64,000 nt of DNA from a virus, in IMG/VR virus record IMGVR_UViG_3300030202_003006, positions 62,792 through 126,791 of that record, one strand, 5' to 3'. The position numbers and the translations under genes were made by a program. Numbering within the stretch: the stretch's first letter is position 1; each line of letters opens with the position of its first letter. The notes beneath the pieces were generated by a model that made no database searches, was not told where the DNA came from, and saw only the letters and a program-made list of their open reading frames with translations. Of the stretch, positions 1-36,541 are shown in pieces.

Positions 1-1625
1 TCTATTGTATTGTCATAAATAGGATACATACAAGATACTTTTTTATCTTGTCCTATTCTAAATGCACGGTCTTCACATTGAGACATATCTGAAGGAACAA
101 AAGATAAATCATTAAAGATAACAACTTCAGCAGCAGTTAAAGTAATACCAACTCCAGCGGCTTTTACATTACCTATAAAAACTTTTACCTTATCGTCATT
201 TTGAAATCTATCTACACTTTTTTGTCTATCTTCTTTTTTCATTGTACCGTTAAGAATTACAGCTTCTTTTTTGTATTTTTCATACAAAGTCATTAGGGGT
301 TCGGTGAAATTAGTAAAAACAATAACCTTCTTATCTTGTTTTAAACATTGGTCTATTACCTGTATAGTTTCTTTAACCTTTTCTAACGCTATAATTTGTC
401 TAACTTTCATTAGTTTTGAAAGTTGTATAGATAACCCCCTGTTTCTATTTTGTCTACGCCAATCTAAATATTCACCCATTTCTTCTTCATAGACCTTAGA
501 TTTAAGTTCCATGTGTATCGGGGTAATAATTTTATCGGGTAAATCCAAAACATCTTCTTTTAATCTTCTAAGTACTTTATCGTTAGTTTTATCCCTTAAT
601 TCCTCTAGGTTAGTAGCACCAAAAGTCAACCAAATTTTTCTATACCCCCTAAAAATCTGTTTACCATCACAATATCTTCTTACATAATGTATCCAATTAT
701 TAGCCACCCTAGAACCAACTAATTTTAATAAGTTGTAGTAATTCATTGGTCTAGAAGTCATGGGGGTACCGGATAATAACCATAATCTGTCTATTTTAGA
801 AGTTAGATTGTTTACTAACTTTGTTCTTTGAGCCTTCCCGTTAGAAACGTAATGAGCCTCATCTATTATCACCAAATCAAAATTAGAGTCTAAAATTTGT
901 CTATTTTTATCTTTATCTACTGGTAAAGAATGAAAGTTTTTGAGTATATCATAATTTATAATTACATATTTACCATCTTTCCATTTTTTACCTTCTACAA
1001 TACCTACGGATTCCTCCGTGTAATTTTCAATTTCTCGTTTCCAGTTAACTTTTAAAGAAGCTGGACAAATAATTAAAATCTTTTTTGCTTTACAACTAAT
1101 ACTTGCCATAATTGCAGAACTGGTCTTACCCAAACCCATATCATCAGCAAGTATATATTTTTTATTAGATACTAATTTAGTGATAGCAATTTTCTGGTGT
1201 TCAAACGGGGGTCGATGAGAAAATTCCTTAAAATCTACTTTAATGTCTGGACTAGACCTAGGTACTATTTGATTTTTTGGTACCCAGAAAGAATTTAGGT
1301 TTTCCGAATCAATAACCTTACCCCAAACATGATAGGCTTTATCAGTCTCACTTAATAATTTTTCAATCCATATAGATTTAGGTGGTGATTGTAAAAATTT
1401 AGTGGTCATATACTCTTTAGCTAGATAATCCTCAATCTCCATCCATAACCTAACTACTTTGGGTTTGTTATTATAATTTTTATTAATATACTCAGCTTGT
1501 GAACGTGTTAAAGTAAAGGTTTTACTATTAAGCATATTATTTTTTAGGCCTATAATATAGTTATTGGCCCCACAATATTCACTAAGTGAATTTTTAGCTT
1601 TAATTTCCGGTAAGAAATTTTCCAT
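1..1625 (-). CDS. SNF2/DEAH-family helicase (UvsW-like role), C-terminus cut by window edge
   Basis: Superfamily 2 DNA helicase/translocase of the SNF2 type; I see 541 codons and the gene continues beyond base 1. Visible motifs: Walker A in ADDMGLGKTSS (K167), Walker B DEAH at D255-H258, an SGTPM motif III, and motif VI QCEDRAFRIGQ near residue 515. The layout resembles the compact SMARCAL1/HepA-type helicases carried by many phages. By family knowledge these remodel forked or branched DNA; a role like T4 UvsW in recombination-dependent replication is inference. The start is the ATG at 1625, only 66 bp from the divergent start of the neck gene. A host-type promoter lies just upstream (1630-1660), suggesting early or middle expression, in contrast to the virion genes on the other strand. 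Confidence 0.88.
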   Translation of the reverse strand, partial: MENFLPEIKAKNSLSEYCGANNYIIGLKNNMLNSKTFTLTRSQAEYINKNYNNKPKVVRLWMEIEDYLAKEYMTTKFLQSPPKSIWIEKLLSETDKAYHVWGKVIDSENLNSFWVPKNQIVPRSSPDIKVDFKEFSHRPPFEHQKIAITKLVSNKKYILADDMGLGKTSSAIMASISCKAKKILIICPASLKVNWKREIENYTEESVGIVEGKKWKDGKYVIINYDILKNFHSLPVDKDKNRQILDSNFDLVIIDEAHYVSNGKAQRTKLVNNLTSKIDRLWLLSGTPMTSRPMNYYNLLKLVGSRVANNWIHYVRRYCDGKQIFRGYRKIWLTFGATNLEELRDKTNDKVLRRLKEDVLDLPDKIITPIHMELKSKVYEEEMGEYLDWRRQNRNRGLSIQLSKLMKVRQIIALEKVKETIQVIDQCLKQDKKVIVFTNFTEPLMTLYEKYKKEAVILNGTMKKEDRQKSVDRFQNDDKVKVFIGNVKAAGVGITLTAAEVVIFNDLSFVPSDMSQCEDRAFRIGQDKKVSCMYPIYDNTI

Positions 1626-1629
1626 AGGT

Positions 1630-1660
1630 ATAATATAATAAAAAGAGAAAAGAAAGACAA
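1630..1660 (-). promoter_or_regulatory. Bacteroidota-type promoter for the helicase gene
   Basis: On the minus strand TTG (1660-1658), a 20-bp spacer, then TATATTAT (1637-1630) sits immediately upstream of the ATG at 1625. The Bacteroidota primary sigma consensus is a TTG-containing -33 box and TAnnTTTG at -7 with about 19-21 bp between. The -7 box matches the first TA and TT but not the last two bases, so this is a fair rather than perfect match. It has the same 20-bp spacing as the better site at 9742-9772. Confidence 0.5.
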
Positions 1661-1664
1661 ATTG

Positions 1665-1678
1665 TATTTATAATAAAA
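1665..1678 (+). promoter_or_regulatory. Late-promoter-like motif, neck gene unit
   Basis: TATTTATAATAAAA, beginning 26 bp before the ATG of the gp14-like gene. It is one of at least 13 copies of TATTTATnnTAAAA found ahead of virion transcription units in this window. Function as a late promoter is inferred from position and recurrence. Confidence 0.6.
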
Positions 1679-1690
1679 GGACATATTAAT

Positions 1691-2206
1691 ATGGCAAATA
1701 AAAAAATACCAATTACACGAATATCTAAGTTTTTCGGAGCGGAAGATTTTGATTTAGAACAGAATATTGGAATGGAGTGGTTACATGGTGACATGCACTT
1801 TACATTAGTTTTATTTAGGGTAGATAGTAAATTGTCTGATGTTGATGATGTCTATGGTGAATCAGGACCCGAAGAAATTAGATTTAAGGTACCGGTTGAG
1901 TTTAATGCATATGTAAAAATAGACGAACCAAGGTTAGATAGTTATGCTACAGGATTGGTTAAAGACTTAGAACCGGGAAACATGACCTTAGGGGTTTACC
2001 TAAAACATTTAGAAGAGTTAGATATAGATATTAATTACGGTGATTATATCGGTTATCCAGAAAAAGAAAATAAGATGAGGTACTATACAGTAACTAATGA
2101 CGGTAGAGTTACATCAGACAATAAACACACAATAGGTGGGTATAAGGCTTTTTACAGAACAATTACATGTTCTTATGTAAGTCCAAATGAATTTAAAGGA
2201 ATATAA
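1691..2206 (+). CDS. Neck protein, gp14-like
   Basis: A 171-residue protein probably forming part of the head-tail connector (neck). It shows a DDVYGES segment and a C-terminal GDYIGYPE...YKAFYRTITCSYVSPNEF stretch. These resemble the conserved parts of T4 gp14-type neck proteins (a DxLYGE segment, then GDLIYFP and a C-terminal YxLxCExFxY block). At 171 residues it is shorter than T4 gp14. Its stop overlaps the next ATG by one base (TAATG), and the next gene is a gp15-like tail completion protein, the same order as in T4. Start: ATG after an AAGGACATATTAAT leader; the TATTTATAATAAAA motif lies just upstream. The gp14 assignment is from remembered family features and order. Confidence 0.6.
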   Translation: MANKKIPITRISKFFGAEDFDLEQNIGMEWLHGDMHFTLVLFRVDSKLSDVDDVYGESGPEEIRFKVPVEFNAYVKIDEPRLDSYATGLVKDLEPGNMTLGVYLKHLEELDIDINYGDYIGYPEKENKMRYYTVTNDGRVTSDNKHTIGGYKAFYRTITCSYVSPNEFKGI

Positions 2207-3303
2207 TGTCATTACCAAAAAAAGTAAAAAAACATTTAAATATAGCACCTGGACCTATACAAGGACATTACCCAGATGGGTACGATGGCCGTACAACACC
2301 TAATAGGAGAAGAGAACTTGCTGATTTAATTAATGATGATGGTACATTTTTACCTAAGTCACTTTTACACGCAGATTTAGATAGGGGTATGTTAGATTTT
2401 GTACAGACACAATTAAAGACCGTAACTAGTGGAAAGGCTATAAATGTTATAGATAGGATTTTAACTTTACAAAGATGGGCAGAATTTTCACAGACTTGGA
2501 AGTTTAGTACTTCTGATAAAAATGTTAATTTACCATTTATAGTGGTGGTAAGAAAACCAGACGTACAGTACGGTAGTAACCCAGCTTTACAATATACTAT
2601 ACCAGATAGAAAACAATTCCATTATGCGAAAGTACCTACTTGGGATGGGAATAGAAAGGGATACGACATATACACAATACCACAACCAGTACCTGTAGAC
2701 ATAACTTATGATGTCAAAATAATTTGTAATAGGATGAGAGAGTTAAATAACTTTAATAGAAAAACATTACAAACGTTCACATCTAGACAAGCTTATACAT
2801 TTGTAAAGGGACACTACATTCCTATAGTACTAGAATCTATAGGGGATGAAAGTAAGATAGACACAGAAGACAGAAGATACTACCAACAAACATATCAACT
2901 CCAACTACAAGGATTTTTATTAGATGAAGAGGAGTTTGAGGTTAAGCCAGCTATTAGTAGGGAATTGGTTATGTTTGGTTTCGATAAAAAAAATAGAAAA
3001 AAAGAAAGAAAGAATTTAGATGTTCACAACCCAGATAAAGTAAGGACTAATGTAGATTTTCCACCTGGACAATCAAGCCAAACAATAATTTACGATTATA
3101 AAAATAATATTAGAGTAAGGAGATTAAATAATATATCAAGTGTTCAGTTTGAAATAACAACCCTAGAAAATAATTACCCATTAACTAAAATAGTTACAGA
3201 AGAACCTTTTTTAATAAACAGTGGTGACACGTTAAAAATAACAGTAGTAAAAAATAACCCAGGAGCAGCAAGATTAATTTTAGATGAAAAGTTAGTTAGA
3301 TAA
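2206..3303 (+). CDS. Tail completion and sheath stabiliser protein, gp15-like
   Basis: A 365-residue protein expected to cap the tail and stabilise the sheath at the head-proximal end. The central block VPVDITYDVKIICNRMREL, then FNRKTL...FTSRQAYTFVKGHYIPI and EDRRYYQQTYQLQLQGFLLDEEEF (roughly residues 160-250) is characteristic of the gp15/gp3 terminator-type proteins of T4-like marine phages. The C-terminal third (about 285-365) is a separate region, perhaps a beta-rich add-on. It overlaps the gp14-like gene by one base and has an AAAGGA sequence six bases before the ATG, one of the few Shine-Dalgarno-like sites here. The next plus-strand gene is the sheath. Confidence 0.72.
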   Translation: MSLPKKVKKHLNIAPGPIQGHYPDGYDGRTTPNRRRELADLINDDGTFLPKSLLHADLDRGMLDFVQTQLKTVTSGKAINVIDRILTLQRWAEFSQTWKFSTSDKNVNLPFIVVVRKPDVQYGSNPALQYTIPDRKQFHYAKVPTWDGNRKGYDIYTIPQPVPVDITYDVKIICNRMRELNNFNRKTLQTFTSRQAYTFVKGHYIPIVLESIGDESKIDTEDRRYYQQTYQLQLQGFLLDEEEFEVKPAISRELVMFGFDKKNRKKERKNLDVHNPDKVRTNVDFPPGQSSQTIIYDYKNNIRVRRLNNISSVQFEITTLENNYPLTKIVTEEPFLINSGDTLKITVVKNNPGAARLILDEKLVR

Positions 3304-3305
3304 CG

Positions 3306-3473
3306 TTATTCCCCATATATATCTTTTTTCACCTTACATTTTTCAACAATTAATTTTTCTATAAAAGCAAACATTTTTAATCCGTTTTTATTACAATACT
3401 CTTTAAGGATAGAATGAGATTCTTCACTTATCTTTAAATTTTTAATTTTTCTTTTTTTACTTTCTGAAGACAT
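3306..3473 (-). CDS. Small ribbon-helix-helix-like protein
   Basis: A 55-residue basic protein on the strand opposite its neighbours, ending two bases from the gp15-like stop. After a lysine/arginine-rich start, IKNLKISEESHSILKEYC could be the beta strand and first helix, and NGLKMFAFIEKLIVEK the second helix of a ribbon-helix-helix (CopG/Arc type) fold. Such proteins are usually dimeric DNA-binding regulators; no target is evident. I choose the ATG at 3473 because a TATTTATTATAAAA motif, the same element that precedes the late genes, lies 25 bp upstream on the same strand; a longer TTG-initiated reading from 3536 would run across that motif. Confidence 0.6.
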   Translation of the reverse strand: MSSESKKRKIKNLKISEESHSILKEYCNKNGLKMFAFIEKLIVEKCKVKKDIYGE

Positions 3474-3484
3474 ATGGGGGGTAT

Positions 3485-3498
3485 TTTTATAATAAATA
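3485..3498 (-). promoter_or_regulatory. Late-promoter-like motif on the minus strand
   Basis: Read on the minus strand, 3498-3485 is TATTTATTATAAAA, starting 25 bp upstream of the ATG at 3473. That the motif is in gene-forward orientation on this strand supports a directional, promoter-type role. Confidence 0.55.
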
Positions 3499-3584
3499 AG
3501 ATAATGTATGAAAAAAGTATGAAAAATTACATACAAAGTAGTGAATAACCTATTTTACTACGTAACTTTTCGGTTTAGGGCATG

Positions 3585-3598
3585 TATTTATAATAAAA
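3585..3598 (+). promoter_or_regulatory. Late-promoter-like motif, sheath gene
   Basis: TATTTATAATAAAA, identical to the copy at 1665, lies 46 bp before the sheath ATG within the only plus-strand leader of this region. Confidence 0.6.
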
Positions 3599-3630
3599 CT
3601 ATTAATAAAATATTTTAAAAATTATAAAAA

Positions 3631-6600
3631 ATGGCAGACGGTAATAAGGTATTTGTTTCTCCAGGGGTATATACTTCGGAAAAAGATTTAACATTTGTAG
3701 CACAGAGTGTTGGTGTTACAACATTAGGTTTGGTTGGTGAGGCCTTAAAAGGTCCCGCTTTTGAACCTATTTTTATACAATCATATGATGATTTCATAAC
3801 AAGATTTGGTGGTACTTCCCCAGCAACATATGTGGATTCACAGATTCCACAATATGAATTAGGGTATATTGCAAAGTCTTATCTAAGTCAATCAAACCAA
3901 CTATTTGTTACCAGAGTATTAGGTATAAGTGGTTATGACGCGGGTCCTTCTTGGACGGTAACTACAATAGGTGAATTAGACCCTTGTAGTTTTTCAGGTG
4001 CAAGTACAGGTATTACTAGTGCAAGTACAGGAAACGTAACTAACGGTACAAGAATAAAGTTCTATGTACCAATGACAGGTTCAAACGTATCACTAACAAG
4101 TGTTAGTAATGCTTTTACAGATGTACAATTAGTAACAAACTTCTTTGACTCACTACCGGTACCTATTAAACAACACTTTAATGATGAAACCGTAACAAAA
4201 TGTAATGGAGACACACTACCAACACTTAATAGTTCGTTTATGGATTGGTTTAGAGCTAGTTTCCAATATAGTGCGGGGACTGGTGCAGATACACAAGCTT
4301 TCTCAGCAGCAGCTTTCTATAACGGTTCCATATATCAATACGGATGTCTACCATTGGCTAACACATACGCTGCCACCGCTACAACCAATACGACATTATC
4401 AGCTACGGGTACAACAGTAATTACAAACGTATTAGATACGGATTGTACTACAGCTCTTGGGTGTCAAAGTACATATTGTAACGATGCTTGGTATTACGCA
4501 TTATTTGACTATTCGGGTGACACAACATGTTGTAGTGGAACATCCTATAGTGGAGTAGCTTACCAAATATATGCAAGTGCTACCACATCAGTTCAAAAAG
4601 TATCCACTGGAACTACAATATTTACAGGAAATACCTACATAAATGGTGTGTTAACTACAGCTTGTACAGTTTATTCAGGTCATGTAGTGGTCGATTATGT
4701 AGAATATAATGGGGCTAAACCATACGTAGATTATGATGGTATGGCAGTCCTTACATTTAGGTCTAGAGGATTAAGTTCTAAATCTTCTGGTGGACCAGTA
4801 TATGAAATAAGTGGTAATACGGTAGGAAATGTTACATTTGATTGTTCAGGAAATTACTACAAAGTATTAGAAAATCCTTTGGCACCATTTGGTGTTAGTG
4901 CACTTACAGATGCTGGGGTATCATATACGTTTAAAACTTCGTTAGATAGTACAGCTAAAGATTACGCACCTAGAGTATTTGGTATAACACCATTCGATAA
5001 GAAAACTCAAGATGTTCCAATTTTTGTTGAGGAGGCATATCCAAACCTACTAAAAGACGCTTATAGAAGAGGTAAGGTTAGAGGGTTACAATGTTGTATG
5101 GTACATTTACCAGCAGCAAGATTCAATAACGCTAACTTAGATTCTATAGCTTGGTACATGAATCAATGGCAAACACCTGAAACACCATACGTTGTTTCGG
5201 AAATGCAGGGTACAGACATATTTAGATTATTTAAGTTCATCTCAATATCTGACGGTAACGCAGCTAACAGAGAAATTAAAATATCATTAATTAATTTATC
5301 TTTTGAAAGAGGGGAGTTTGACGTAATTGTAAGAGATTACTACGATACTGATGCGAGTCCACAAGTATTAGAAAAATATACTAGATGTAGTTTAGACCCA
5401 ACTAAGGTTTCATTTATTGGTAGAAAAATAGGAACTTCTACTGGTGAGTTTGAATTAAAGTCTAAATATATAATGTTATTCTTAGCAGATGGTGTTTTAG
5501 ATGGTACATTTGTTGGTTCACTACCTTGTGGTTTCGAAGGTTATAGAGTTAGACAATATGGAAATTGTTCAATAAATCCATTTATACAATATAAAACTAA
5601 ATATTACAACCCAGGTGAGATTGTATACGACCCACCTTTCGGTTCTGGTACTGTAAATAACCAAGTTAGAAGTGGTGGTGATAAAATATCAAAAACTTAT
5701 TTAGGTATATCAGATACATTAGGAGCAGCTTACGATACTGATTTCTTTAACTTTAAAGGTAGAATCACACCTTCTAGTGTTTGTAATACTACTACTGGTA
5801 CAGAATGGGGTGTAATAACACAAGGTTTCCATATGGATTCAGGAGCTACAATTGCTATAGGTGGTCAAGGAAACTATATAGATTTAGCTGGTACTAATAT
5901 AGCGGGTAAACAAGTATTTGCGGTTGGAGCAACTTCATTTAGAAAAGAACCAACTTTAAGTACTGACCCATATAAAAAACTAAGAGCTCGTAAATTTACT
6001 GTAGCACCATACGGTGGTTTTGATGGATGGGATATATACAGAAAAACAAGGTCAAATACAGACGATTATAGATTGGGTCTAACAGGTTGGTTAAATGGGG
6101 CGTGTGTTACAGCAGAATACCCAACAGCTAGTGGGTTAGGGTCATTTAAGAAATTAAGTTCTACTGAAGGTAATAGTGACTATTACGCGTACCTAAGAGG
6201 AATTAACGAATTCTCTAATCCAGAAGCTGTAGATATTAATGTATTTGCGACACCGGGTATAGATTATGTGGATAATTTAGGTTTGGTAAATGAAGCGATA
6301 GACATGGTAGAAGATGATAGAGCGGATTCACTATATGTTACAACAACACCAGATTATAACATGTTCGTAACTAACACAACAGATACAACAAATCAAGTTA
6401 CACCGGAAGAAGCTGTAGATAATTTAGAAGACTCTTTAATCGACTCAAATTATACGGCTACGTATTATCCTTGGATACAAGTAAGGGATACGGCTAATAA
6501 TAAACAAATATACATTCCACCTACTGCGGAAGTTATGAGAAATATAGCATTAACAGATAATATTTCATTCCCATGGTTTGCGTCAGCAGGTTATACTAGA

Positions 6601-7065
6601 GGTATAGTACAAGCTACAAAAGCAAGAAAGAAACTTACTTTAGATGAAAGAGACACATTATATGTAGGTAGATTAAATCCAATAGCTACATTTAGTGATA
6701 CGGGTCCAATTATTTGGGGTAATAAAACACTACAAGTTAGAGAGTCAGCTTTAGATAGAATTAATGTTAGAAGATTACTACTACAAACTAGAAAATTAAT
6801 ATCAGCTGTTTCAGTAAGATTAATCTTTGAACAAAATGATGAAATAGTTAGACAACAATTCTTAGACTTAGTTAATCCAATATTAGATTCTATTAGAAGA
6901 GACAGAGGATTAACAGACTTTAGAGTAGTACTTTCTAACGACCCAGAAGAAATAGATAGAAATGAAATGAACGGTAAAATATATATAAAACCTACTAGAG
7001 CGTTAGAATATATATTTGTAGAGTTCTTAATAACACCTACTGGGGCATCTTTTGAGGATATATAA
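3631..7065 (+). CDS. Tail sheath protein, gp18-like, with large insertion
   Basis: Contractile tail sheath subunit of 1144 residues; T4 gp18 has 659. N-terminal signature VFVSPGVYTSEKDLT (7-21) and LGLVGEALKGPAFEP (32-46). The C-terminal sheath domain begins near residue 980 with FPWFASAGYTRG, LNPIATFSDTGPIIWGNKTLQ and RINVRRLLLQTRKLI, all classic sheath motifs. Between about residues 118 and 370 there is a serine/threonine-rich insertion with scattered cysteines (for example CQSTYC and TTCC), probably surface-exposed on the sheath. The start ATG has no Shine-Dalgarno but an A-rich leader. It is followed by an acidic EF-hand-bearing protein rather than directly by the tube gene. Confidence 0.95.
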   Translation: MADGNKVFVSPGVYTSEKDLTFVAQSVGVTTLGLVGEALKGPAFEPIFIQSYDDFITRFGGTSPATYVDSQIPQYELGYIAKSYLSQSNQLFVTRVLGISGYDAGPSWTVTTIGELDPCSFSGASTGITSASTGNVTNGTRIKFYVPMTGSNVSLTSVSNAFTDVQLVTNFFDSLPVPIKQHFNDETVTKCNGDTLPTLNSSFMDWFRASFQYSAGTGADTQAFSAAAFYNGSIYQYGCLPLANTYAATATTNTTLSATGTTVITNVLDTDCTTALGCQSTYCNDAWYYALFDYSGDTTCCSGTSYSGVAYQIYASATTSVQKVSTGTTIFTGNTYINGVLTTACTVYSGHVVVDYVEYNGAKPYVDYDGMAVLTFRSRGLSSKSSGGPVYEISGNTVGNVTFDCSGNYYKVLENPLAPFGVSALTDAGVSYTFKTSLDSTAKDYAPRVFGITPFDKKTQDVPIFVEEAYPNLLKDAYRRGKVRGLQCCMVHLPAARFNNANLDSIAWYMNQWQTPETPYVVSEMQGTDIFRLFKFISISDGNAANREIKISLINLSFERGEFDVIVRDYYDTDASPQVLEKYTRCSLDPTKVSFIGRKIGTSTGEFELKSKYIMLFLADGVLDGTFVGSLPCGFEGYRVRQYGNCSINPFIQYKTKYYNPGEIVYDPPFGSGTVNNQVRSGGDKISKTYLGISDTLGAAYDTDFFNFKGRITPSSVCNTTTGTEWGVITQGFHMDSGATIAIGGQGNYIDLAGTNIAGKQVFAVGATSFRKEPTLSTDPYKKLRARKFTVAPYGGFDGWDIYRKTRSNTDDYRLGLTGWLNGACVTAEYPTASGLGSFKKLSSTEGNSDYYAYLRGINEFSNPEAVDINVFATPGIDYVDNLGLVNEAIDMVEDDRADSLYVTTTPDYNMFVTNTTDTTNQVTPEEAVDNLEDSLIDSNYTATYYPWIQVRDTANNKQIYIPPTAEVMRNIALTDNISFPWFASAGYTRGIVQATKARKKLTLDERDTLYVGRLNPIATFSDTGPIIWGNKTLQVRESALDRINVRRLLLQTRKLISAVSVRLIFEQNDEIVRQQFLDLVNPILDSIRRDRGLTDFRVVLSNDPEEIDRNEMNGKIYIKPTRALEYIFVEFLITPTGASFEDI

Positions 7066-7079
7066 TATTTATAAATTAA
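7066..7079 (+). promoter_or_regulatory. Late-promoter-like motif
   Basis: TATTTATAAATTAA starts at 7066, directly after the sheath stop, and begins 24 bp before the ATG at 7090. It matches the TATTTAT core and part of the A-rich tail. Confidence 0.5.
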
Positions 7080-7089
7080 GTAATAGAAT

Positions 7090-7926
7090 ATGAAATTTAA
7101 TAAAAAAACATTGTCAGAAAGTTTAAACCGACCTTTATCGGGCAAAAAAGTATTCACTGAGGGTAAAATACAAAATGTTTTACTAAGTGAAGAACAATTA
7201 GATAGGTTAATTTTAACCCTAAATAAATCTAAAAATACCGCAATAAATAAGATAGTTTTTGAATCTTATGATTTAATAAGAAAAAGTATTGTTAGTGAAG
7301 GTTTAGAGTTAAATATAGATAATTATTCCGATACTATAATGGAACAAGGTCAGTATGATAGAAATCCTGGAGTTGCGGCAGGTGAAGGACTAGAGAACGT
7401 AATAAAAGGAATTCAAAAAGCCTACGAAATGATTAAAGATAGTGATACAAGAAAAAAACTTGCTAACTCTATCACTAAATTAGGTAATTTTATGACTATT
7501 ACAGCTGATGCAATTGCTTCGGGGAGAGACCAAAGAGCGATGTCTAATCCAGATTCTTTAAGAGACCCACTTCCTTATCCAGAATTAGATGAAGGTCACG
7601 ATAAAGAAATGGAAGAAGGTAAGAAAAAAGACCATGATGGTGATGGTGATATAGATTCTGACGATTATTTAGCTGCTAGAGATAAAGCAATCAAAAAAGC
7701 CATGAAAGAAGATAGTGAAGGTGAAGAAACATATAATTATGCTGATAATGAGGGTGAGGATAGAAAACACATTGAAGCCTTAAAAAAGGATATGGCGTAT
7801 GATGAAAAACATGAATACAGAGATGAAAAAGGAACTCACTTTGAATCCGAAGAAGAAAAAGAAAGACTAATCCAAGAGGATATTAAAAAGATGAAACAAA
7901 TAATAAAACCAATTTCAAAAATTTAA
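7090..7926 (+). CDS. Acidic protein with EF-hand-like calcium loop
   Basis: A 278-residue charged protein of unknown function. Residues 181-192 (DHDGDGDIDSDD) fit a canonical 12-residue EF-hand/dockerin loop: Asp at positions 1, 3 and 5, Gly at 6, Ile at 8, Asp at 9 and 12. It is followed by a helix-prone DYLAARDKAIKKAMKE. Calcium binding is therefore likely. Near the N-terminus VLLSEEQLDRLILTLNKS (30-47) resembles a short helical motif shared with the next gene and with the HAD-like gene. The C-terminal 70 residues are almost wholly charged. Position between sheath and tube and its late-type leader suggest a virion or assembly role; I cannot name one. Confidence 0.8.
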   Translation: MKFNKKTLSESLNRPLSGKKVFTEGKIQNVLLSEEQLDRLILTLNKSKNTAINKIVFESYDLIRKSIVSEGLELNIDNYSDTIMEQGQYDRNPGVAAGEGLENVIKGIQKAYEMIKDSDTRKKLANSITKLGNFMTITADAIASGRDQRAMSNPDSLRDPLPYPELDEGHDKEMEEGKKKDHDGDGDIDSDDYLAARDKAIKKAMKEDSEGEETYNYADNEGEDRKHIEALKKDMAYDEKHEYRDEKGTHFESEEEKERLIQEDIKKMKQIIKPISKI

Positions 7927-7930
7927 TAAA

Positions 7931-8269
7931 ATGAAAAAAGTAAAAAAAATACAACTAAAAGAATCAGAATTAATAGATTTGATAGAAAAATTAGTTAAGG
8001 AAAACTTAGGTAATGGTAATGGTCAAAATCTAGGAATGATGAATACTCCAACAGCAAAATATAAAGACCTTGTGGAAGACGAGGACGTTGAGGGTATCGA
8101 TGAACTGGAAGAAGAAGAGTTAGATGATGAAGGAGGTGATATGGTTGACCCAAAAACTGGTGAAGTGGTAAAAACAGAAAGTAGAAAAATACCAAAAAAG
8201 ACTTTAAAATTAACTGAAAGTGATTTAATTAGAGTTATTAAAAACGTTGTTAAGGAACAAAATAAATAA
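7931..8269 (+). CDS. Small acidic protein with two copies of a helical motif
   Basis: A 112-residue protein with basic ends and a very acidic middle (DEDVEGIDELEEEELDDEGG, about 51-70). The N-terminal IQLKESELIDLIEKLVKEN and C-terminal LKLTESDLIRVIKNVVKEQ are clear copies of one amphipathic helix motif, K-x-L-x-E-S-x-L-I-x-x-I-x-x-x-V-K-E. This motif is common in proteins of large marine phages, but I know of no assigned function. Four bases separate it from the preceding stop; the leader is AT-only with no Shine-Dalgarno. Confidence 0.75.
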   Translation: MKKVKKIQLKESELIDLIEKLVKENLGNGNGQNLGMMNTPTAKYKDLVEDEDVEGIDELEEEELDDEGGDMVDPKTGEVVKTESRKIPKKTLKLTESDLIRVIKNVVKEQNK

Positions 8270-8286
8270 AACTAAAAATTAATATT

Positions 8287-8352
8287 ATGAAATGCGATTG
8301 CCAAGTTTGTGAATGTGGTACAAAATGTGAGTGTAGTTGTTGTGATTGTTAA
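8287..8352 (+). CDS. 21-residue, nine-cysteine peptide (metallothionein-like)
   Basis: ATG at 8287 to TAA at 8350-8352 encodes MKCDCQVCECGTKCECSCCDC: nine of 21 residues are cysteine, arranged as CxC and CxxC pairs. The pattern is that of small metal-thiolate peptides, so binding of zinc, copper or another soft metal is a reasonable inference. It starts 17 bp after the preceding stop in an A/T-rich leader like the other genes here, and the terminator at 8373-8394 lies just behind it, as expected for the last gene of a unit. It is too short to prove as a gene from sequence alone. I do not recognise a named family. Confidence 0.55.
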   Translation: MKCDCQVCECGTKCECSCCDC

Positions 8353-8372: not shown

Positions 8373-8394
8373 AAAAGGTCCAAAAGGACCTTTT
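8373..8394. terminator. Bidirectional intrinsic terminator
   Basis: A perfect 9-bp stem, AAAAGGTCC / GGACCTTTT, with an AAAA tetraloop is followed by a T run on the plus strand (to 8397). Read on the minus strand it is followed by TTTTATTTTT, so it can end both the plus-strand unit finishing with the cysteine peptide and the minus-strand envelope island finishing at 8396. Confidence 0.85.
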
Positions 8395-8395
8395 T

Positions 8396-8632
8396 TTATT
8401 CAACTAATTTACCCCCATTTAGTAAAATCAAAATTAAAATCATAGGTGATAATATAGGAGCTTTAATCATATGAGTTACTATGTAAAATACATACCACCC
8501 ACTACTAGGATTATCTCCACGACTCTTTTCGAATTTTAAGTACCCACGTTCGATACTTTTTTCATTTATAATTAAAAATATAAACATTAATATCTGTGAG
8601 ATTATAAGGTATGTTAATAGTATTTCAGTCAT
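8396..8632 (-). CDS. Small membrane protein with two transmembrane segments
   Basis: A 78-residue protein with two hydrophobic spans, about residues 3-21 and 47-72, joined by a charged loop (EKSIERGYLKFEKSRGDNP). Topology and size would suit a holin or an inner-membrane exclusion protein, but nothing in the sequence decides between these. It is the last gene of the minus-strand island and ends at the bidirectional terminator. A 72-bp gap separates it from the secreted protein upstream; I see no convincing promoter in that gap. Confidence 0.65.
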   Translation of the reverse strand: MTEILLTYLIISQILMFIFLIINEKSIERGYLKFEKSRGDNPSSGWYVFYIVTHMIKAPILSPMILILILLNGGKLVE

Positions 8633-8704
8633 AATTTTATTTTTTTTTTTGGTTAAACTCCTATATTAATATATACGGATTTGTTTTAATTTAGTTACGT
8701 ATTT

Positions 8705-9154
8705 TTACTCTTTAAATCCCATAAAACCCGTAAATTCTTTTTCTCTACCAGTTTCAGTTAGATAAGAACCCTCAAGAGCAAAAACTAATAAATCATTTTG
8801 AACATATAAAAACCCAACTCTATTTGAGAAGTAGTCAGTAAAGGCGTAAGTCACACACCCATCTTCTAAGTAATTGATATTAGTTATTGTTAAGTAAAGA
8901 TTTACAGTATCTGGTGTAGTAAGTGACGAATACATAATTTGGGTAAAATCCAATGTAAGATTAACCGTATCCAAATCTAATTTAGTGGTGTTAGGACCAT
9001 AGTTACCCAAAACAGTCAATTTTCCAAAGTCGTCGTTATTAAAATCTTGTGATAAGTTTTCCCCATTAATGACGGATAAATTTTCCGAAATATTAATAGT
9101 TTGAGCAAAAGTAAATAATGGTAATAAAAATAGTATTGTGATTAATTTTTTCAT
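8705..9154 (-). CDS. Secreted protein with signal peptide
   Basis: A 149-residue protein beginning MKKLITILFLLPLFTFAQT: a short basic n-region, a hydrophobic core and an FAQ cleavage site typical of Bacteroidota Sec signal peptides. The mature part (about 19-149) looks beta-rich with no motif I recognise and ends FTGFMGFKE. The start is four bases after the stop of the lipoprotein gene, so the two are very likely co-translated. A phage gene with a Bacteroidota-style export signal suggests action in the host periplasm or at the cell surface. Confidence 0.7.
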   Translation of the reverse strand: MKKLITILFLLPLFTFAQTINISENLSVINGENLSQDFNNDDFGKLTVLGNYGPNTTKLDLDTVNLTLDFTQIMYSSLTTPDTVNLYLTITNINYLEDGCVTYAFTDYFSNRVGFLYVQNDLLVFALEGSYLTETGREKEFTGFMGFKE

Positions 9155-9158
9155 GTTT

Positions 9159-9737
9159 TTAGTTTATTAATTTTTTAAAAAATAGTTTATTGTAGTATCT
9201 ACAATTATACCCATCTATGTTTTCGTAACTTTCTTGTACATAAAAATAAAGAGTATTATTTTGTAGACTGATTATTTCATATTGGATAGGGCGACTAGAA
9301 CCACCCAACTGTAGTGTAGTGCCTACCAAAGATTCTGTTACACTTAAATTATTGGACGTAACATTAAGACCGTAAGGTTGTAGACTGTCATAGTCTAGTA
9401 TAAAACTACCCATACCAGGTATATTATCTGGGATATCAAAAGACCAAGTAGTCGTGTAACGAGTTATTTCTTCAAACTCATACTGAGACCCCCCATACCT
9501 TAAACTACTAGTATTACCAGCATCAAAGTGGTGAAATTCTTCAGTATAATCTAATTCTAGATTTTCTATTATCATTTTTCCACCCATTAATAACCACTCA
9601 CCTTCTAGTAAATTATCTTCCACATAAGATACTGGTGGTGGGTTAGTTGGTGGGGTTGGGTTACACTCTATTAGTGGATAGTTCTTTTCACAAGAGTATA
9701 GAGATAATATAATTAATAGTTTTATAATTTTTTTCAT
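9159..9737 (-). CDS. Lipoprotein, possibly lipocalin-like
   Basis: A 192-residue protein starting MKKIIKLLIILSLYSCEKN: a lipoprotein signal peptide with the lipidated cysteine at about position 16. A proline-rich linker follows, then NLLEGEWLLMGGKMIIEN, similar to the LxGxWxL opening of Bacteroidota lipocalin-like lipoproteins, and a beta-rich body. The protein should be anchored in the host outer or inner membrane. A very good host-type promoter abuts its start, so early expression is likely. Phage lipoproteins expressed early often block superinfection by a second phage; that role here is inference. Confidence 0.72.
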   Translation of the reverse strand: MKKIIKLLIILSLYSCEKNYPLIECNPTPPTNPPPVSYVEDNLLEGEWLLMGGKMIIENLELDYTEEFHHFDAGNTSSLRYGGSQYEFEEITRYTTTWSFDIPDNIPGMGSFILDYDSLQPYGLNVTSNNLSVTESLVGTTLQLGGSSRPIQYEIISLQNNTLYFYVQESYENIDGYNCRYYNKLFFKKLIN

Positions 9738-9741
9738 ACTA

Positions 9742-9772
9742 CAAAGATAATAAATAAAATCGATTAAACCAA
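9742..9772 (-). promoter_or_regulatory. Bacteroidota sigma-type promoter for the envelope island
   Basis: On the minus strand TTG (9772-9770), a 20-bp spacer, then TATCTTTG (9749-9742), a perfect match to the Bacteroidota -7 consensus TAnnTTTG. The ATG at 9737 is only five bases downstream, which implies a very short or absent leader. Confidence 0.75.
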
Positions 9773-9781
9773 ATTAATTTG

Positions 9782-9795
9782 TATTTATATTATAT
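9782..9795 (+). promoter_or_regulatory. Late-promoter-like motif, HAD-like gene
   Basis: TATTTATATTATAT begins 12 bp before the ATG at 9794 and overlaps it. If it acts as a -10-type element the transcript would be leaderless or nearly so. It lies back to back with the minus-strand host-type promoter at 9742-9772. Confidence 0.45.
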
Positions 9796-10648
9796 GGCAA
9801 AACAAATAATCATAACTAAAGAACAATTAAAACTTATTGGTGGTATATTAGAAGAACAATCTAATAATATAAGAGCTTATAGTTTTGATTGGGACGATAA
9901 TATTCTTAAAATGCCTACCACCATTAAAATGTTAAAAAATACTTCTGATGGTTGGGAACCTATAGAGGTGGGTACAGATGAGTTTGCTTTAGTTAGAGAC
10001 GATGAAAATTATAAATTAGATGATGGTGCATTTGATAATTTTATAGATGAAGATGCCTTCTTAAATGACTTAAAAATAGCTTTAGAAACAAATTCATTCG
10101 CCCCTTCATTCGATAAATTTAAGGAAGCGTTAATATACGCCAACCCCATATCTATTATTACAGCTAGAGGGCACGACCCCCAAACCCTAAGAAAAGGGAT
10201 GGATTTAGTTATATCACACACTTTTAACGAAACAGAATTATTAGAGATGATGGATAATATACAACAAGTATTTCCAGAGTTAGACGGTAATGACCCAGAA
10301 TTAATATTAAAAACATATTTAGATGGTCACGAATATCACCCAGTAACATCCACAAAATTTACTGAAAAATTCGGATTAGAAGGTGGTTCTGCAGCAAATC
10401 CAGAAGAAAATAAAAAAATAGCTTTAAGAGATTATGTTACAAAAATAGTTCATAAAGCGGGAGAAATGGTGGGTAGTAAGTATAATAAACTATCCGTTGG
10501 GTTTAGTGATGATGATTTGGGTAATATAAATGCTATAATACCTTTTATACAGGAAGTATTACAGGTGGAGTTTCCTGAAGTAGATTTTATAGTTTACGAC
10601 ACTTCGGAGGGAATAAATAAAAAAATAGTATTAAAGAAGACGAATTAG
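9794..10648 (+). CDS. HAD-superfamily-like hydrolase
   Basis: A 284-residue protein with the haloacid dehalogenase fold signatures: motif I SFDWDDNIL (D32, D34), motif II SIITARGHD (about 125), and motif IV VGFSDDDLGNI (about 235). Phosphatase or kinase-3'-phosphatase-type chemistry is possible, but the substrate is unknown. I start at ATG 9794; a TTG 15 bases upstream would place the start inside the promoter-like motif. The N-terminal IIITKEQLKLIGGILEEQ is a helical tag like those in the genes at 7090 and 7931. Placement between sheath and tube, with a late-type leader, hints at a packaged or assembly enzyme. Confidence 0.72.
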   Translation: MAKQIIITKEQLKLIGGILEEQSNNIRAYSFDWDDNILKMPTTIKMLKNTSDGWEPIEVGTDEFALVRDDENYKLDDGAFDNFIDEDAFLNDLKIALETNSFAPSFDKFKEALIYANPISIITARGHDPQTLRKGMDLVISHTFNETELLEMMDNIQQVFPELDGNDPELILKTYLDGHEYHPVTSTKFTEKFGLEGGSAANPEENKKIALRDYVTKIVHKAGEMVGSKYNKLSVGFSDDDLGNINAIIPFIQEVLQVEFPEVDFIVYDTSEGINKKIVLKKTN

Positions 10649-30445: not shown

Positions 30446-31825
30446 ATGAGTGAAAATAAGAATTTTGGATACCTAGGATATAGTTTTCAGTTAAAATTAC
30501 TTAATTTAACAATTACTGATAATGCATTTTTTCAGTCAATAATAGACGCTATATTACCTAAATATTTTGATAATCAATATTTTAAATTAATTATGCAATT
30601 AATTAAAGAATATTATGAAAAATATAACACCGCACCATCGTTTGACGCTTTAGACCAATTAACTAGAATTGAGATTTCTTCTGAAATGGCAAGAAAATAT
30701 ATATTTGATATGTTAAAAGAGATAAAAGACGCTGATTTTGCTGACCATTTATTTATTAAAGAAAAATCCATTAAATTTTGTAAACAACAAGAATTAAAAA
30801 AGGCCATTAAAAAAGTTGAAAATATAATGGAAAAAGGTGATTTTGAGAGTTACGATAAATGTGAGGAGTATATTAGAGATGCTATTAAAATAGGTGATGG
30901 TGATTTAGGTAGTTTTGAAATTTTTACAGAATTGGAAAAACTATTAGAAGATGATTATAGACATCCGATACCTACTGGTGTGGATGGGTTAGATAATATA
31001 TTGAATGGTGGACTAGCTAAAGGTGAAATAGGGGTTGTATTAGCACCTACTGGGGTAGGAAAAACAACTATGCTAACTAGATTTGCAAATACCGCATTCA
31101 ACATGGGATATAATGTTCTACAGATATTTTTTGAAGACAATCCAAAAATTATACAAAGAAAACATTTTACTTGTTGGACGGGAATACCAAATGACGAATT
31201 AAGTAACCACAAAGAAACTGTATTAGATAAAGCAGATGAAATGAAAAAAACTGGAGGTAAATTAATATTAAAAAAATTACCATCAGATGAAATGACAATG
31301 TTACAAATTAAAAACCAAGTAAGAAAAATTATTTCTGAAGGTACGAAAATAGACATTGTTCTTATAGATTATATAGATTGTATATTACCAGACCGTTCAT
31401 TTAATGATGAATGGAAGGGAGAAGGTTCTGTCATGAGAAAATTCGAAGGTATGTGTCACGAGTTAAATATTGCTGGTTGGACAGCAACACAAGGTAATAG
31501 GAGTTCAATATCATCAGATGTTGTAACTACTGACCAAATGGGAGGCTCAATTAAAAAAGCACAAGTTGGACACGTAATAATATCTGTAGCTAAAACTTTA
31601 CAACAAAAAGAAATGGGATTAGCTACCATAGCAATCGTTAAATCCCGATTAGGAAAAGATGGTGTTATATTTGAAAATTGTAAATTTGATAATGGAACTT
31701 TAGAAATAGACACCGAAACTACACAAACTTTCTTAGGTTTTGAGGAGGAAAAAACAAATAGAAATAGAGAGAAAATTGCTCGTGCTCTACAAAGACGACA
31801 ACAAGTAATAAACAAAAATAATTAA
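30446..31825 (+). CDS. 41: Replicative DNA helicase, DnaB/gp41-like
   Basis: A 459-residue hexameric helicase that unwinds DNA ahead of the fork. The N-terminal helical domain (1-165) is followed by a RecA-type ATPase core: PTGVDGLDNILNGGL (176-190), Walker A APTGVGKTT (200-208), and Walker B IDIVLIDYIDCI (D308). Near the end, TQGNRSSISSDVV and MGGSIKKAQVGHVIISVAKT match the DnaB sensor and DNA-binding regions. Length is close to T4 gp41 (475). I see no separate primase gene in the window. Confidence 0.9.
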   Translation: MSENKNFGYLGYSFQLKLLNLTITDNAFFQSIIDAILPKYFDNQYFKLIMQLIKEYYEKYNTAPSFDALDQLTRIEISSEMARKYIFDMLKEIKDADFADHLFIKEKSIKFCKQQELKKAIKKVENIMEKGDFESYDKCEEYIRDAIKIGDGDLGSFEIFTELEKLLEDDYRHPIPTGVDGLDNILNGGLAKGEIGVVLAPTGVGKTTMLTRFANTAFNMGYNVLQIFFEDNPKIIQRKHFTCWTGIPNDELSNHKETVLDKADEMKKTGGKLILKKLPSDEMTMLQIKNQVRKIISEGTKIDIVLIDYIDCILPDRSFNDEWKGEGSVMRKFEGMCHELNIAGWTATQGNRSSISSDVVTTDQMGGSIKKAQVGHVIISVAKTLQQKEMGLATIAIVKSRLGKDGVIFENCKFDNGTLEIDTETTQTFLGFEEEKTNRNREKIARALQRRQQVINKNN

Positions 31826-31839
31826 TAAAAGAAAAAAAT

Positions 31840-33744
31840 ATGGAAGTATCAAATAAGATTCTGTCGGATATTACTGTCTACATGAAGTACGCAAAATATA
31901 TACCGGAACTAAATAGAAGAGAAACGTGGGAAGAATTAGTTACCCGAAATAAAAAAATGCATCAGAAAAAATACCCTAATTTAAAGGAAGAAATAGAGCA
32001 AAAATATAAGTTAGTGTATGATAAAAAAGTACTGCCATCAATGAGAAGTATGCAATTTGGTGGTAAACCAATTGAGATTAGTCCAAATAGAATCTATAAT
32101 TGTGCTTACCTACCTATTGACCATATAGATTCATTTCCAGAAACTATGTTTCTACTATTGGGAGGAACAGGTGTTGGATACTCAGTTCAAAAGCACCATG
32201 TAAAAAAATTACCAGTAATCCAAAAACCATATCCAAAAAGAAAAAAAAGATTTTTAATTGGTGATAGTATTGAAGGATGGGCAGACGCTATAAAAGTTTT
32301 AATGAAAACATACATGAATGGTGGTGGTAGTAGAGTAGAATTTGATTATTCAGATATAAGACCTAAAGGGGCAAGATTAATAACATCAGGTGGTAAAGCA
32401 CCGGGACCTCAACCACTAAAAGAATGTTTAGTTAAAATAGAAGGTCTATTAAATCAAAAAGAAAATGGAGAACAACTTACAACTATTGAAGTACATGATA
32501 TTATATGTCATATCGCAGACGCGGTACTTGCCGGTGGTATTCGTAGAGCAGCTCTTATTAGTTTATTTAGTGCTGATGACGACGCTATGATTTCTTGTAA
32601 AGCAGGAAATTGGTGGGAATTAAATCCACAAAGAGGTAGAGCAAATAATTCAGCTTGTTTAATGAGACATAAAATTACTAAAGAATTTTTTATGGACTTA
32701 TGGAAACGTGTTGAATTATCAGGAGCAGGAGAACCAGGAATTTATCTAAATAACGATAAAGATTGGGGTACAAATCCTTGTTGTGAAATCGCATTAAGAC
32801 CAAACCAATTCTGTAATCTTTGTGAGGTAAATGTTTCAAATATAGAATCACAAGAAGATTTAAATGAAAGAGTAAAAGCAGCAGCCTTCATTGGAACACT
32901 TCAAGCAGGTTATACAGCTTTCCACTATCTAAGAGAAATATGGCAAGAAACAACTGAAAAAGATGCTCTCATTGGTGTATCAATGACAGGTATTGGTTCA
33001 GGAAAAGTATTAAAATATGACATGAAAAAAGCTGCTAGTTTAGTTAAACGAGAAAATACCAGAGTATCTAAACTAATAGATGTTAACCCATCAGCAAGAT
33101 GTACAACTGTTAAACCAGCTGGTACCACATCATTAACATTAGGAACATCATCAGGTATTCATGCGTGGCATAATGATTATTATATTAGAAGAGTTAGGGT
33201 AGGTAAAAATGAAGCAATTTATACTTACTTAAATATTAATCATCCAGAGTTAGTAGAAGATGAATATTTTAGACCACATGACACAGCTGTAATTAGTATA
33301 CCACAAAAGGCACCTGTAGGGTCTATATTACGAACTGAATCTCCATTTGATTTACTAGAAAGAGTAAAAAAGGTAGCTACAGAATGGGTAAGGTCCGGAC
33401 ATAGAAATGGGTCTAATTCTCACAATGTATCCGCAACAATTTCATTAAAAGAAAACGAATGGGATAAAGCTGGGGAATGGATGTGGGATAATAGAAAAGC
33501 TTATAATGGGTTATCGGTTCTACCATATAATGGAGGTACTTACACACAAGCACCATTTGAAGATATCACTGAAGAACAATATCACGAGATGATGAAATCT
33601 CTTAAAGAAGTTGATTTAAGTAAAGTTGTTGAATTAGACGACAATACCAACCTAACTGGTGAACTTGCATGTGCTGGCGGTAGTTGTGAAGTGGATATCG
33701 ATGTAAAAACTATGAAAAAAGAAAAAGAATTGAATGAGGCATAA
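31840..33744 (+). CDS. Adenosylcobalamin-dependent ribonucleoside triphosphate reductase (class II)
   Basis: A 634-residue monomeric class II ribonucleotide reductase of the Lactobacillus leichmannii RTPR type (739 residues), making deoxynucleotides using coenzyme B12. The active site NPCCE (N312, C314 for the thiyl radical, E316) and C325 eleven residues later reproduce the spacing of C408, E410 and C419 in RTPR. C88 in IYNCAY matches C119, and the C-terminal CAGGSC pair matches the redox shuttle C731/C736. SMRSMQFGGK and LLLGGTGVGYSVQKHHV are also typical. About 60 residues are missing between C88 and C314 relative to RTPR, so the allosteric or cofactor region may be reduced. Confidence 0.9.
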   Translation: MEVSNKILSDITVYMKYAKYIPELNRRETWEELVTRNKKMHQKKYPNLKEEIEQKYKLVYDKKVLPSMRSMQFGGKPIEISPNRIYNCAYLPIDHIDSFPETMFLLLGGTGVGYSVQKHHVKKLPVIQKPYPKRKKRFLIGDSIEGWADAIKVLMKTYMNGGGSRVEFDYSDIRPKGARLITSGGKAPGPQPLKECLVKIEGLLNQKENGEQLTTIEVHDIICHIADAVLAGGIRRAALISLFSADDDAMISCKAGNWWELNPQRGRANNSACLMRHKITKEFFMDLWKRVELSGAGEPGIYLNNDKDWGTNPCCEIALRPNQFCNLCEVNVSNIESQEDLNERVKAAAFIGTLQAGYTAFHYLREIWQETTEKDALIGVSMTGIGSGKVLKYDMKKAASLVKRENTRVSKLIDVNPSARCTTVKPAGTTSLTLGTSSGIHAWHNDYYIRRVRVGKNEAIYTYLNINHPELVEDEYFRPHDTAVISIPQKAPVGSILRTESPFDLLERVKKVATEWVRSGHRNGSNSHNVSATISLKENEWDKAGEWMWDNRKAYNGLSVLPYNGGTYTQAPFEDITEEQYHEMMKSLKEVDLSKVVELDDNTNLTGELACAGGSCEVDIDVKTMKKEKELNEA

Positions 33745-33919
33745 GGTATCTAAAGAGATACTATACCATTTTAATTGTGGTAAATGTAATAAATGGTGGT
33801 CAATAGCTGACTACCATTTATTGTCTTTAAATAATACTAAAGATTTGACTTATGAACAAAAAATAGTATGTCCTCATTGTGAACATAAAGAAAAAGTAAT
33901 AGATATAAAAAATGAATAG
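33734..33919 (+). CDS. Small zinc-ribbon protein
   Basis: A 61-residue protein with two CxxC knuckles, FNCGKCNKWW (about 13-22) and VCPHCEHKE (about 45-53), a four-cysteine zinc ribbon. It overlaps the ribonucleotide reductase gene by 11 bases and the next gene by eight, so the three are probably co-expressed. Function unknown; a partner of the reductase or a nucleic-acid binder would both fit. Confidence 0.7.
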   Translation: MRHKVSKEILYHFNCGKCNKWWSIADYHLLSLNNTKDLTYEQKIVCPHCEHKEKVIDIKNE

Positions 33920-34121
33920 AAAAGATGATTGGATTTCGGAATTACATTATAAAGAATTTTTGAAACCAAAACTACAAGCAAATGATTTTTATTGGGAAAA
34001 CGGAAGAATGGTTATGACAGCAGAATACCATAAAAGAAGAGGGTTTTGTTGTGGTAATGGTTGTAAACACTGTCCTTATTCCCCACCACACACCAAATTA
34101 AATAAAGAATATGGAAAGTAA
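33912..34121 (+). CDS. DUF5522-like cysteine protein
   Basis: A 69-residue protein with FYWENGRMVMTAEYHKRRGF then CCGNGCKHCPYSPP (about 26-58), the signature of the DUF5522 family. That family is widespread in cellular Bacteroidota and is of unknown function; the C-C-x3-C-x2-C cluster probably binds a metal. Its presence in a phage suggests acquisition from a Bacteroidota host. The ATG overlaps the zinc-ribbon stop (ATGAATAG). Confidence 0.8.
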   Translation: MNRKDDWISELHYKEFLKPKLQANDFYWENGRMVMTAEYHKRRGFCCGNGCKHCPYSPPHTKLNKEYGK

Positions 34122-34161
34122 TTTAATATAATACCCGTATACCATAAACTAAATTATCAAG

Positions 34162-34175
34162 TATTTATTATAAAA
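34162..34175 (+). promoter_or_regulatory. Late-promoter-like motif, gp25/gp6 unit
   Basis: TATTTATTATAAAA, 18 bp before the gp25 ATG, identical to the minus-strand copy at 3485-3498. It marks the switch from the replication block to virion genes. Confidence 0.6.
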
Positions 34176-34179
34176 AACT

Positions 34180-34629
34180 ATGCCCAATCAAAAATATGGT
34201 ATAAAATTTCCTTTTACTCAAAGTAGTGAAGGCTTCTTTCTAGGGTTAAATTCTAATCCTGATGCTGAAGTTAGGTCAAATTTAATGCATTTAATATTAA
34301 CCCAAAAAGGTTCTAGATATTTTTTACCAGATTTTGGCACTAATTTGATGAGGTTTTTATTCGAACCACTAGACTCAGGAACAATATCCTCGATAGATAA
34401 AGAAATAAGAAAATCCGTAGCAAAATATATACCTAATCTGGTAATTAACAATATAGAAATCAAAAATATGGATGAGGTTAGAGAAGAGGATACACTTCTA
34501 ATTGGAGAAGATAATAGTTTTAGTTTTGCTGGTGAAAAAGAACAAGAATATACAGTAAGAATAAGAATAGATTATAGTATAGGTAGTTCGGTTTTCGAAA
34601 CTAAAGATTTTGTTATAATAAATTTATAA
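34180..34629 (+). CDS. 25: Baseplate wedge protein, gp25-like
   Basis: A 149-residue protein of the GPW/gp25 family (T4 gp25: 132). The core is NLMHLILTQKGSRYFLPDFG (about 35-54) with LMRFLFEPLDSGT and SIDKEIRKSVAKYIPNLVI, matching the family pattern including the RxxxPxFG motif. It anchors the first sheath ring to the baseplate wedge. The gp6-like gene starts one base after its stop region (ATG 34631), the same pairing as in T4 and other contractile systems. Confidence 0.92.
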   Translation: MPNQKYGIKFPFTQSSEGFFLGLNSNPDAEVRSNLMHLILTQKGSRYFLPDFGTNLMRFLFEPLDSGTISSIDKEIRKSVAKYIPNLVINNIEIKNMDEVREEDTLLIGEDNSFSFAGEKEQEYTVRIRIDYSIGSSVFETKDFVIINL

Positions 34630-34630
34630 T

Positions 34631-36472: not shown

Positions 36473-36520
36473 CCTTTACTAAAAATTAGTAGTATCTATT
36501 ATTAGTTTTACTACAATAAA

Positions 36521-36534
36521 TATTTATTTAGTAA
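36521..36534 (+). promoter_or_regulatory. Late-promoter-like motif, fibre/baseplate unit
   Basis: TATTTATTTAGTAA, starting 21 bp before the ATG at 36542. The A-rich half is imperfect. Confidence 0.45.
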
Positions 36535-36541
36535 AGCACAT

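Follow-up and report, generated by a model that had tools for sequence, protein, structure and literature searches.

A Putative Moron-Like Early Cassette of Envelope Proteins, Variable in Composition, within the Tail Module of Large Myovirus-Type Phages

Organization of the Locus

The stretch studied here, referred to as the window, comprises 64,000 nucleotides (bases 62792–126791) of a 155,892-bp IMG/VR virus record (IMGVR_UViG_3300030202_003006), giving a phage genome size of 155.9 kb. By their tail sheath genes, this phage and its relatives are of the myovirus type, and they are large; the label "marine" that we use for them is our own reading of the IMG/VR sample numbers. The host phylum is probably the Bacteroidota, to judge from the promoter type described below and from a sheath that resembles the one of a Flavobacterium phage.

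Three minus-strand genes occupy window positions 8396–9737, antisense to the tail genes. They are flanked on the low-coordinate side by sheath-side genes (3631–8269, plus strand) and on the other side by a divergent gene (9794–10648, plus strand) for a 284-aa protein with an FDWDDN motif, which served as the anchor for the comparison of loci; this neighbor has no match in Pfam and looks HAD-like by eye. The three open reading frames (9159–9737, 8705–9154, and 8396–8632) were found as the original prediction had them, each with an envelope signal. Of the span 8396–9772 that it had assigned to the operon, the coding part stops at 9737 (minus strand), and 9742–9773 is the promoter on the same strand.

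The first gene of the cassette (9159–9737, minus strand) encodes a 192-aa lipoprotein with the lipobox LYSC, whose family alignment of 13 members covers 35–98% identity. After the lipid-bearing cysteine, most of 27 distinct lipoproteins show the pattern C-x-K-E, with a single acidic residue after the lysine, a pattern that comes near the signal C-x-K-(D/E)2 for surface export in the Bacteroidota (PMC5080379); the lipoprotein of the window departs from this pattern, with CEKN instead. Its structural model is of moderate confidence (pLDDT 77) with disordered N-terminal residues, and the mature protein, which has no second membrane span, is predicted to be beta-rich, globular, and weakly lipocalin-like. 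A fold search returned weak lipocalin/TbpB-like matches only.

Four nucleotides past the lipoprotein stop codon begins the gene for a 149-aa secreted protein (8705–9154, minus strand) with a signal peptide ending in FTFAQ. This is the fastest-evolving of the cassette proteins, aligning at 27–31% identity with its syntenic relatives. Its model is all-beta and fairly confident (pLDDT 82.5), the protein is predicted to be beta-barrel-like, and its fold matches were weakly calycin-like and lipocalin/TbpB-like. For both soluble proteins the best fold matches had E values of 0.002–0.04 (all E > 0.001) and TM-scores mostly of 0.3–0.46, and given such weak matches we did not accept either of these beta-rich proteins as a member of the lipocalins or calycins.

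The third gene (8396–8632, minus strand) encodes a 78-aa membrane protein in which hydropathy places two spans, at residues 4–22 and 51–69. An alignment of 16 members (52–74% identity) shows an invariant HxxKAP and a conserved C-terminal LNGGKL; members of the family are 78–83 aa long, with a charged loop whose net charge is near zero. Pfam matches of this protein to DUF420 and DUF350 lay under the cut-offs and were not accepted.

Against two relatives of 95–99% identity, the cassette genes show N/S rate ratios of approximately 0–0.17, like the neighboring gene, with 0–0.05 for the lipoprotein gene, which indicates that all three genes are under purifying selection. Because these ratios are low and homologs of far lower identity keep the frames, the computational evidence marks all three frames as real genes.

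Transcript Boundaries and Promoter Classes

Promoters of the TTTG...TATCTTTG type are the −33/−7 promoters of the Bacteroidota. The 56-nt gap upstream of the lipoprotein gene holds such a site, TTTG-N20-TATCTTTG (9742–9773, minus strand; TTTG at 9770–9773, TATCTTTG at 9742–9749), which ends 4 nt from the ATG. The host-type promoter that had been proposed for the operon is thereby located, and the computational comparison shows it to be conserved: of 49 distinct cassettes, 43 have TTTG-N19/20-TATCTTTG, where shuffled sequences give a mean of about 0.5, the sequences of the cassettes being related and hence non-independent, and it is kept irrespective of which gene leads the cassette. Consensus promoters for sigma-70 by the cassette are rarer than chance, and the analysis was therefore based on the Bacteroidota consensus. 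The 4-nt spacing from the −7 element to the ATG recurs in most cassettes of the clade, also where the secreted-protein gene comes first (L046, L050, L059, and L060). Since transcription in F. johnsoniae starts 4–5 nt beyond the −7 element (PMC6847099), the 5′ end of the mRNA is predicted to lie at the AUG or at most one base from it; the predicted start at 9737 (minus strand) is the A of the lipoprotein ATG, and the mRNA would be leaderless.

At its other end the cassette is closed by a bidirectional intrinsic terminator, AAAAGGTCC-AAAA-GGACCTTTT (8373–8394, both strands), a hairpin with T runs that ends both the cassette transcript and the converging transcript of the tail genes. Here, too, the earlier claim agrees with what was found, and in seven related loci (L003, L004, L005, L006, L019, L020, and L022) the loop differs while the GGTCC/GGACC stem is retained. 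It is supported that the three cassette genes form a single transcription unit. Directly before the shared terminator lies a 21-aa cysteine-rich, metallothionein-like reading frame, MKCDCQVCECGTKCECSCCDC (window 8287–8352, plus strand), with all nine of its nine cysteines kept in three more variants, one of them from the distant phage L151.

Strict host-type sites occur in four upstream regions genome-wide (0.064 expected), preceding the cassette, DNA polymerase B, a sigma-70 factor, and a Clp ATPase gene divergent from dnaK, the latter assigned by its N-terminal sequence. A different motif, TATTTATA, precedes 23 of 68 gene starts in sense orientation (antisense, 6; null mean, 3.3). The structural genes that bear it lie on both strands, and it is a candidate for a phage-specific late promoter. 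The copy at 9782–9789 (plus strand) belongs to the divergent neighbor, not to the cassette, and is conserved in related loci. As a promoter of the cassette itself TATTTATA was rejected: a strict sense match is absent upstream of the cassette of the window and present in only one of 49 distinct cassettes (L046). The window also has a loose match, TATTTATT, which relatives do not retain and which was likewise discarded.

The cassette had been described as an early unit set in late tail genes, and its promoter class is indeed unlike that of the tail genes around it and the same as that of the sigma, polymerase, and chaperone genes. As the host-type site is common to the latter while late genes carry TATTTATA, the conclusion that the cassette would be transcribed early and not late is well supported by the sequence, and the contrast between the two promoters provides a simple key to early and late genes when such phage genomes are read. 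The sigma-70-type factor (regions 1.2, 2, and 4; whole record 142385–143185, L017:385-1185) has its host-type promoter 84 nt upstream and may direct the late motif. The divergent Clp ATPase and DnaK-like genes (whole record 578–4654, L012) have back-to-back host-type promoters between them.

Distribution and Composition of the Cassette among Related Phages

The divergent neighbor anchored 80 loci, 77 of which were placed with the window in a quick tree (78 in total); gene presence was scored from profile matches on partial contigs, and only the three families of the window were counted. On this basis, the cassette occurs in 48 of the 78 loci and is absent in 30, with the sheath gene adjoining the neighbor without any insert in L082, L087, L090, and L100, among others. 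The variable island that was to be looked for in related phages is therefore there. What did not stand is the notion of a fixed three-gene composition. Only 8 of the 48 cassettes hold all three genes, and the lipoprotein and secreted-protein genes are added or missing by lineage. The other five of the six combinations found are lipoprotein with membrane protein (14), lipoprotein with secreted protein (7), membrane protein only (7), secreted protein with membrane protein (6), and lipoprotein only (6). On the tree, at least four changes are needed for the lipoprotein, at least seven for the secreted protein, and at least five for the two-span membrane protein.

No part of the cassette is more widespread than the two-span family, with 58 related loci (near-copies counted), and in this computational comparison it stands out as the conserved core. 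In more distant phages that lack the flanking gene (L140, L147, L148, L151, L155–L159, L164, and L166–L169) it is again antisense, in most cases next to the sheath-proximal gene and under a host-type promoter; in L167–L169 a 333-aa secreted protein is encoded ahead of it. Other secreted proteins also occur within the cassette unit, for example of 197 aa in L005 and of 148 aa in L058 and L067.

The lipoprotein family appears at other sites with a host-type promoter in L007, L008, L028, and L030, and in L029 with only the −7 element retained. In L007 the gene follows one for a secreted Endonuclease_NS protein and precedes one for a small hydrophobic protein; a small hydrophobic protein follows the lipoprotein in L008 as well. 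No two-span homolog was found in these records (L007, L008, and L028–L030), which argues that the parts of the cassette move independently. In Flavobacterium phage immuto, the nearest named sheath relative with a Bacteroidota host, the stretch viewed past the sheath gene contains no antisense insert. A further antisense gene of the window, just upstream of the sheath gene (3306–3473, minus strand), encodes a 55-aa protein that is ribbon-helix-helix-like by eye and has a homolog at the same place in L020.

Searches for Known Relatives

Pfam, PHROGs, NCBIfam, and PADLOC gave no match that could be accepted for any of the three cassette proteins; those tested had no named relative in Pfam, PHROGs, or INPHARED, and an Rfam search returned nothing for the cassette. 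Among 50,697 phage records, tblastn gave no match for the lipoprotein or for two relatives of the two-span protein. For the lipoprotein, a profile search of PDB chains was likewise without a match, and its alignment, scanned against genome contigs, found no relative and no prophage form. Homology of the two-span protein to T4 Imm was rejected (hmmsearch E value 0.87; hhalign probability 0.2%). A targeted search of the literature on exclusion in Bacteroidota phages found no comparable system. New here is a putatively early cassette of several genes that re-assort from phage to phage, encode uncharacterized envelope families, and are predicted to have a leaderless start; it belongs to a clade of myovirus-type, largely marine phages of the Bacteroidota.

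Putative Function of the Cassette

Lambdoid morons carry their own host-type promoter and terminator, lie between conserved late genes, are present or absent among relatives, and often encode envelope proteins. The cassette has a predicted host-type promoter and a terminator of its own and lies between two genes that adjoin each other in relatives lacking it, and we consider the locus, as far as its sequence can tell, to be a moron-like early envelope cassette. It resembles the lambdoid morons in being variably present among late genes with its own promoter and terminator; unlike them, it is multigene and re-assorting, has a conserved two-span core, and resides in large Bacteroidota phages of the myovirus type. 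According to the title of a reference cited in PMC11436027, HK97 gp15 is a moron-encoded superinfection-exclusion protein; the cassette proteins have no PHROG match at the accepted level.

Exclusion effectors are known both among the small lipoproteins and among the small membrane proteins of phages, and the T5 lipoprotein Llp binds the TonB-dependent transporter FhuA (PMC9586334; PMC11436027). The cassette likewise includes a phage-encoded lipoprotein, which recalls Llp and the receptor-inactivating Cor of phi80/N15, proteins that close the receptor of the infected cell; compared by description, the cassette lipoprotein differs from Llp in its 192 aa and beta-rich nature. The two-span protein, of 78–83 aa, recalls T4 Imm, a small membrane protein of 83 aa that has hydrophobic segments and keeps the DNA of a second phage out of the cell. 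Unlike Imm, to which sequence similarity is undetectable and which is encoded among early replication genes, it is encoded antisense in a tail module.

Superinfection exclusion is our best functional guess, and we would give it about an even chance. It fits the early promoter class, the three envelope destinations, a conserved small membrane protein surrounded by a mosaic of accessory genes, and the independence from the late module. As a moron-like autonomous early unit, antisense within the late tail module, the cassette would be transcribed by the host RNA polymerase soon after infection, ahead of the phage-type late promoters, with the shared terminator separating the two converging transcripts. 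The two-span protein would go to the inner membrane, the secreted beta-rich protein to the periplasm, and the lipoprotein to the outer membrane, where it may be surface-exposed. There the two-span protein could block DNA entry as T4 Imm does, and the swappable lipoprotein and secreted proteins could occlude or jam a receptor as Llp does with FhuA, which would also keep progeny off debris. Since the lipoprotein and two-span genes are often found apart, their products need not form one machine. Against exclusion, the low N/S ratios do not carry the mark of an arms race that proteins directed at a receptor should show, although the secreted protein evolves fastest. A more detailed version for lytic Bacteroidota phages, with two layers of exclusion in which a conserved inner-membrane gate (HxxKAP, C-terminal NGGKL) is combined with interchangeable heads, in the outer membrane or the periplasm, jamming TonB-dependent transporters of the SusC type, all expressed from a leaderless early antisense transcript, is unlikely to hold in full.

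The same early promoter class and purifying selection would also suit an early remodeling or protection of the envelope, in which lipid- or ligand-binding beta-barrels and a membrane protein sustain the envelope or nutrient uptake, or modulate stress. Both soluble proteins are predicted to be beta-barrel-like with weak lipocalin/calycin-type matches, but those matches are nonsignificant, no enzymatic or binding motif is recognizable, and the patchy presence among close relatives is more in keeping with an accessory trait of ecological use than with housekeeping; we regard this reading as somewhat improbable. Counter-defense at the membrane, directed against envelope-linked host defenses such as the membrane effectors of abortive systems or against an entry-blocking prophage protein, could likewise draw on the early expression class, the variable composition, and the small membrane proteins. 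It seems quite improbable, as PADLOC matched none of the three window proteins and secreted or outer-membrane partners would be unusual where most defense effectors are cytoplasmic or located in the inner membrane.

A small two-span protein next to a lipoprotein superficially resembles a pair of holin and o-spanin, so that a module for lysis or its control (holin/antiholin with a spanin-like lipoprotein) has to be weighed as well. The promoter is host-type and not late-type, however, and the sole lysis-type gene among the genes scanned, an M23 peptidase as candidate endolysin, lies approximately 65 kb off, which together make such a role less likely; the cassette proteins also match no holin or spanin family in PHROGs, and the predicted mature lipoprotein is globular and beta-rich without a second span, leaving lysis with little probability. 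Least probable is that the three proteins are virion components or tail-assembly factors. Their genes do sit between sheath-side and tube-side genes, but on the opposite strand and with their own promoter, and the signal peptides speak against a role in the virion, as does the absence of the three genes from 30 of the 78 loci with the neighbor gene, in several of which the sheath gene adjoins it.

With one conserved core gene and exchangeable envelope proteins, the locus is a small and well-defined set that lends itself to testing, and its natural combinations can be compared. If the cassette does exclude other phages, the receptors used by marine Bacteroidota phages would be indicated by the swappable heads.

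Other Genes in the Record

Two further observations concern the record outside the tail module. A DruA-like protein (PF14236 and the PADLOC DruA models), belonging to a component family of the Druantia defense system, is encoded at whole-record positions 151989–153164 (L017:9989-11164). A long run of minus-strand genes (whole record 31000–49000; L013 and L014) encodes proteins that, by their N-terminal sequences, are glycosyltransferase-, nucleotide-sugar-, and aminotransferase-like, and this run possibly makes a surface or virion glycan.
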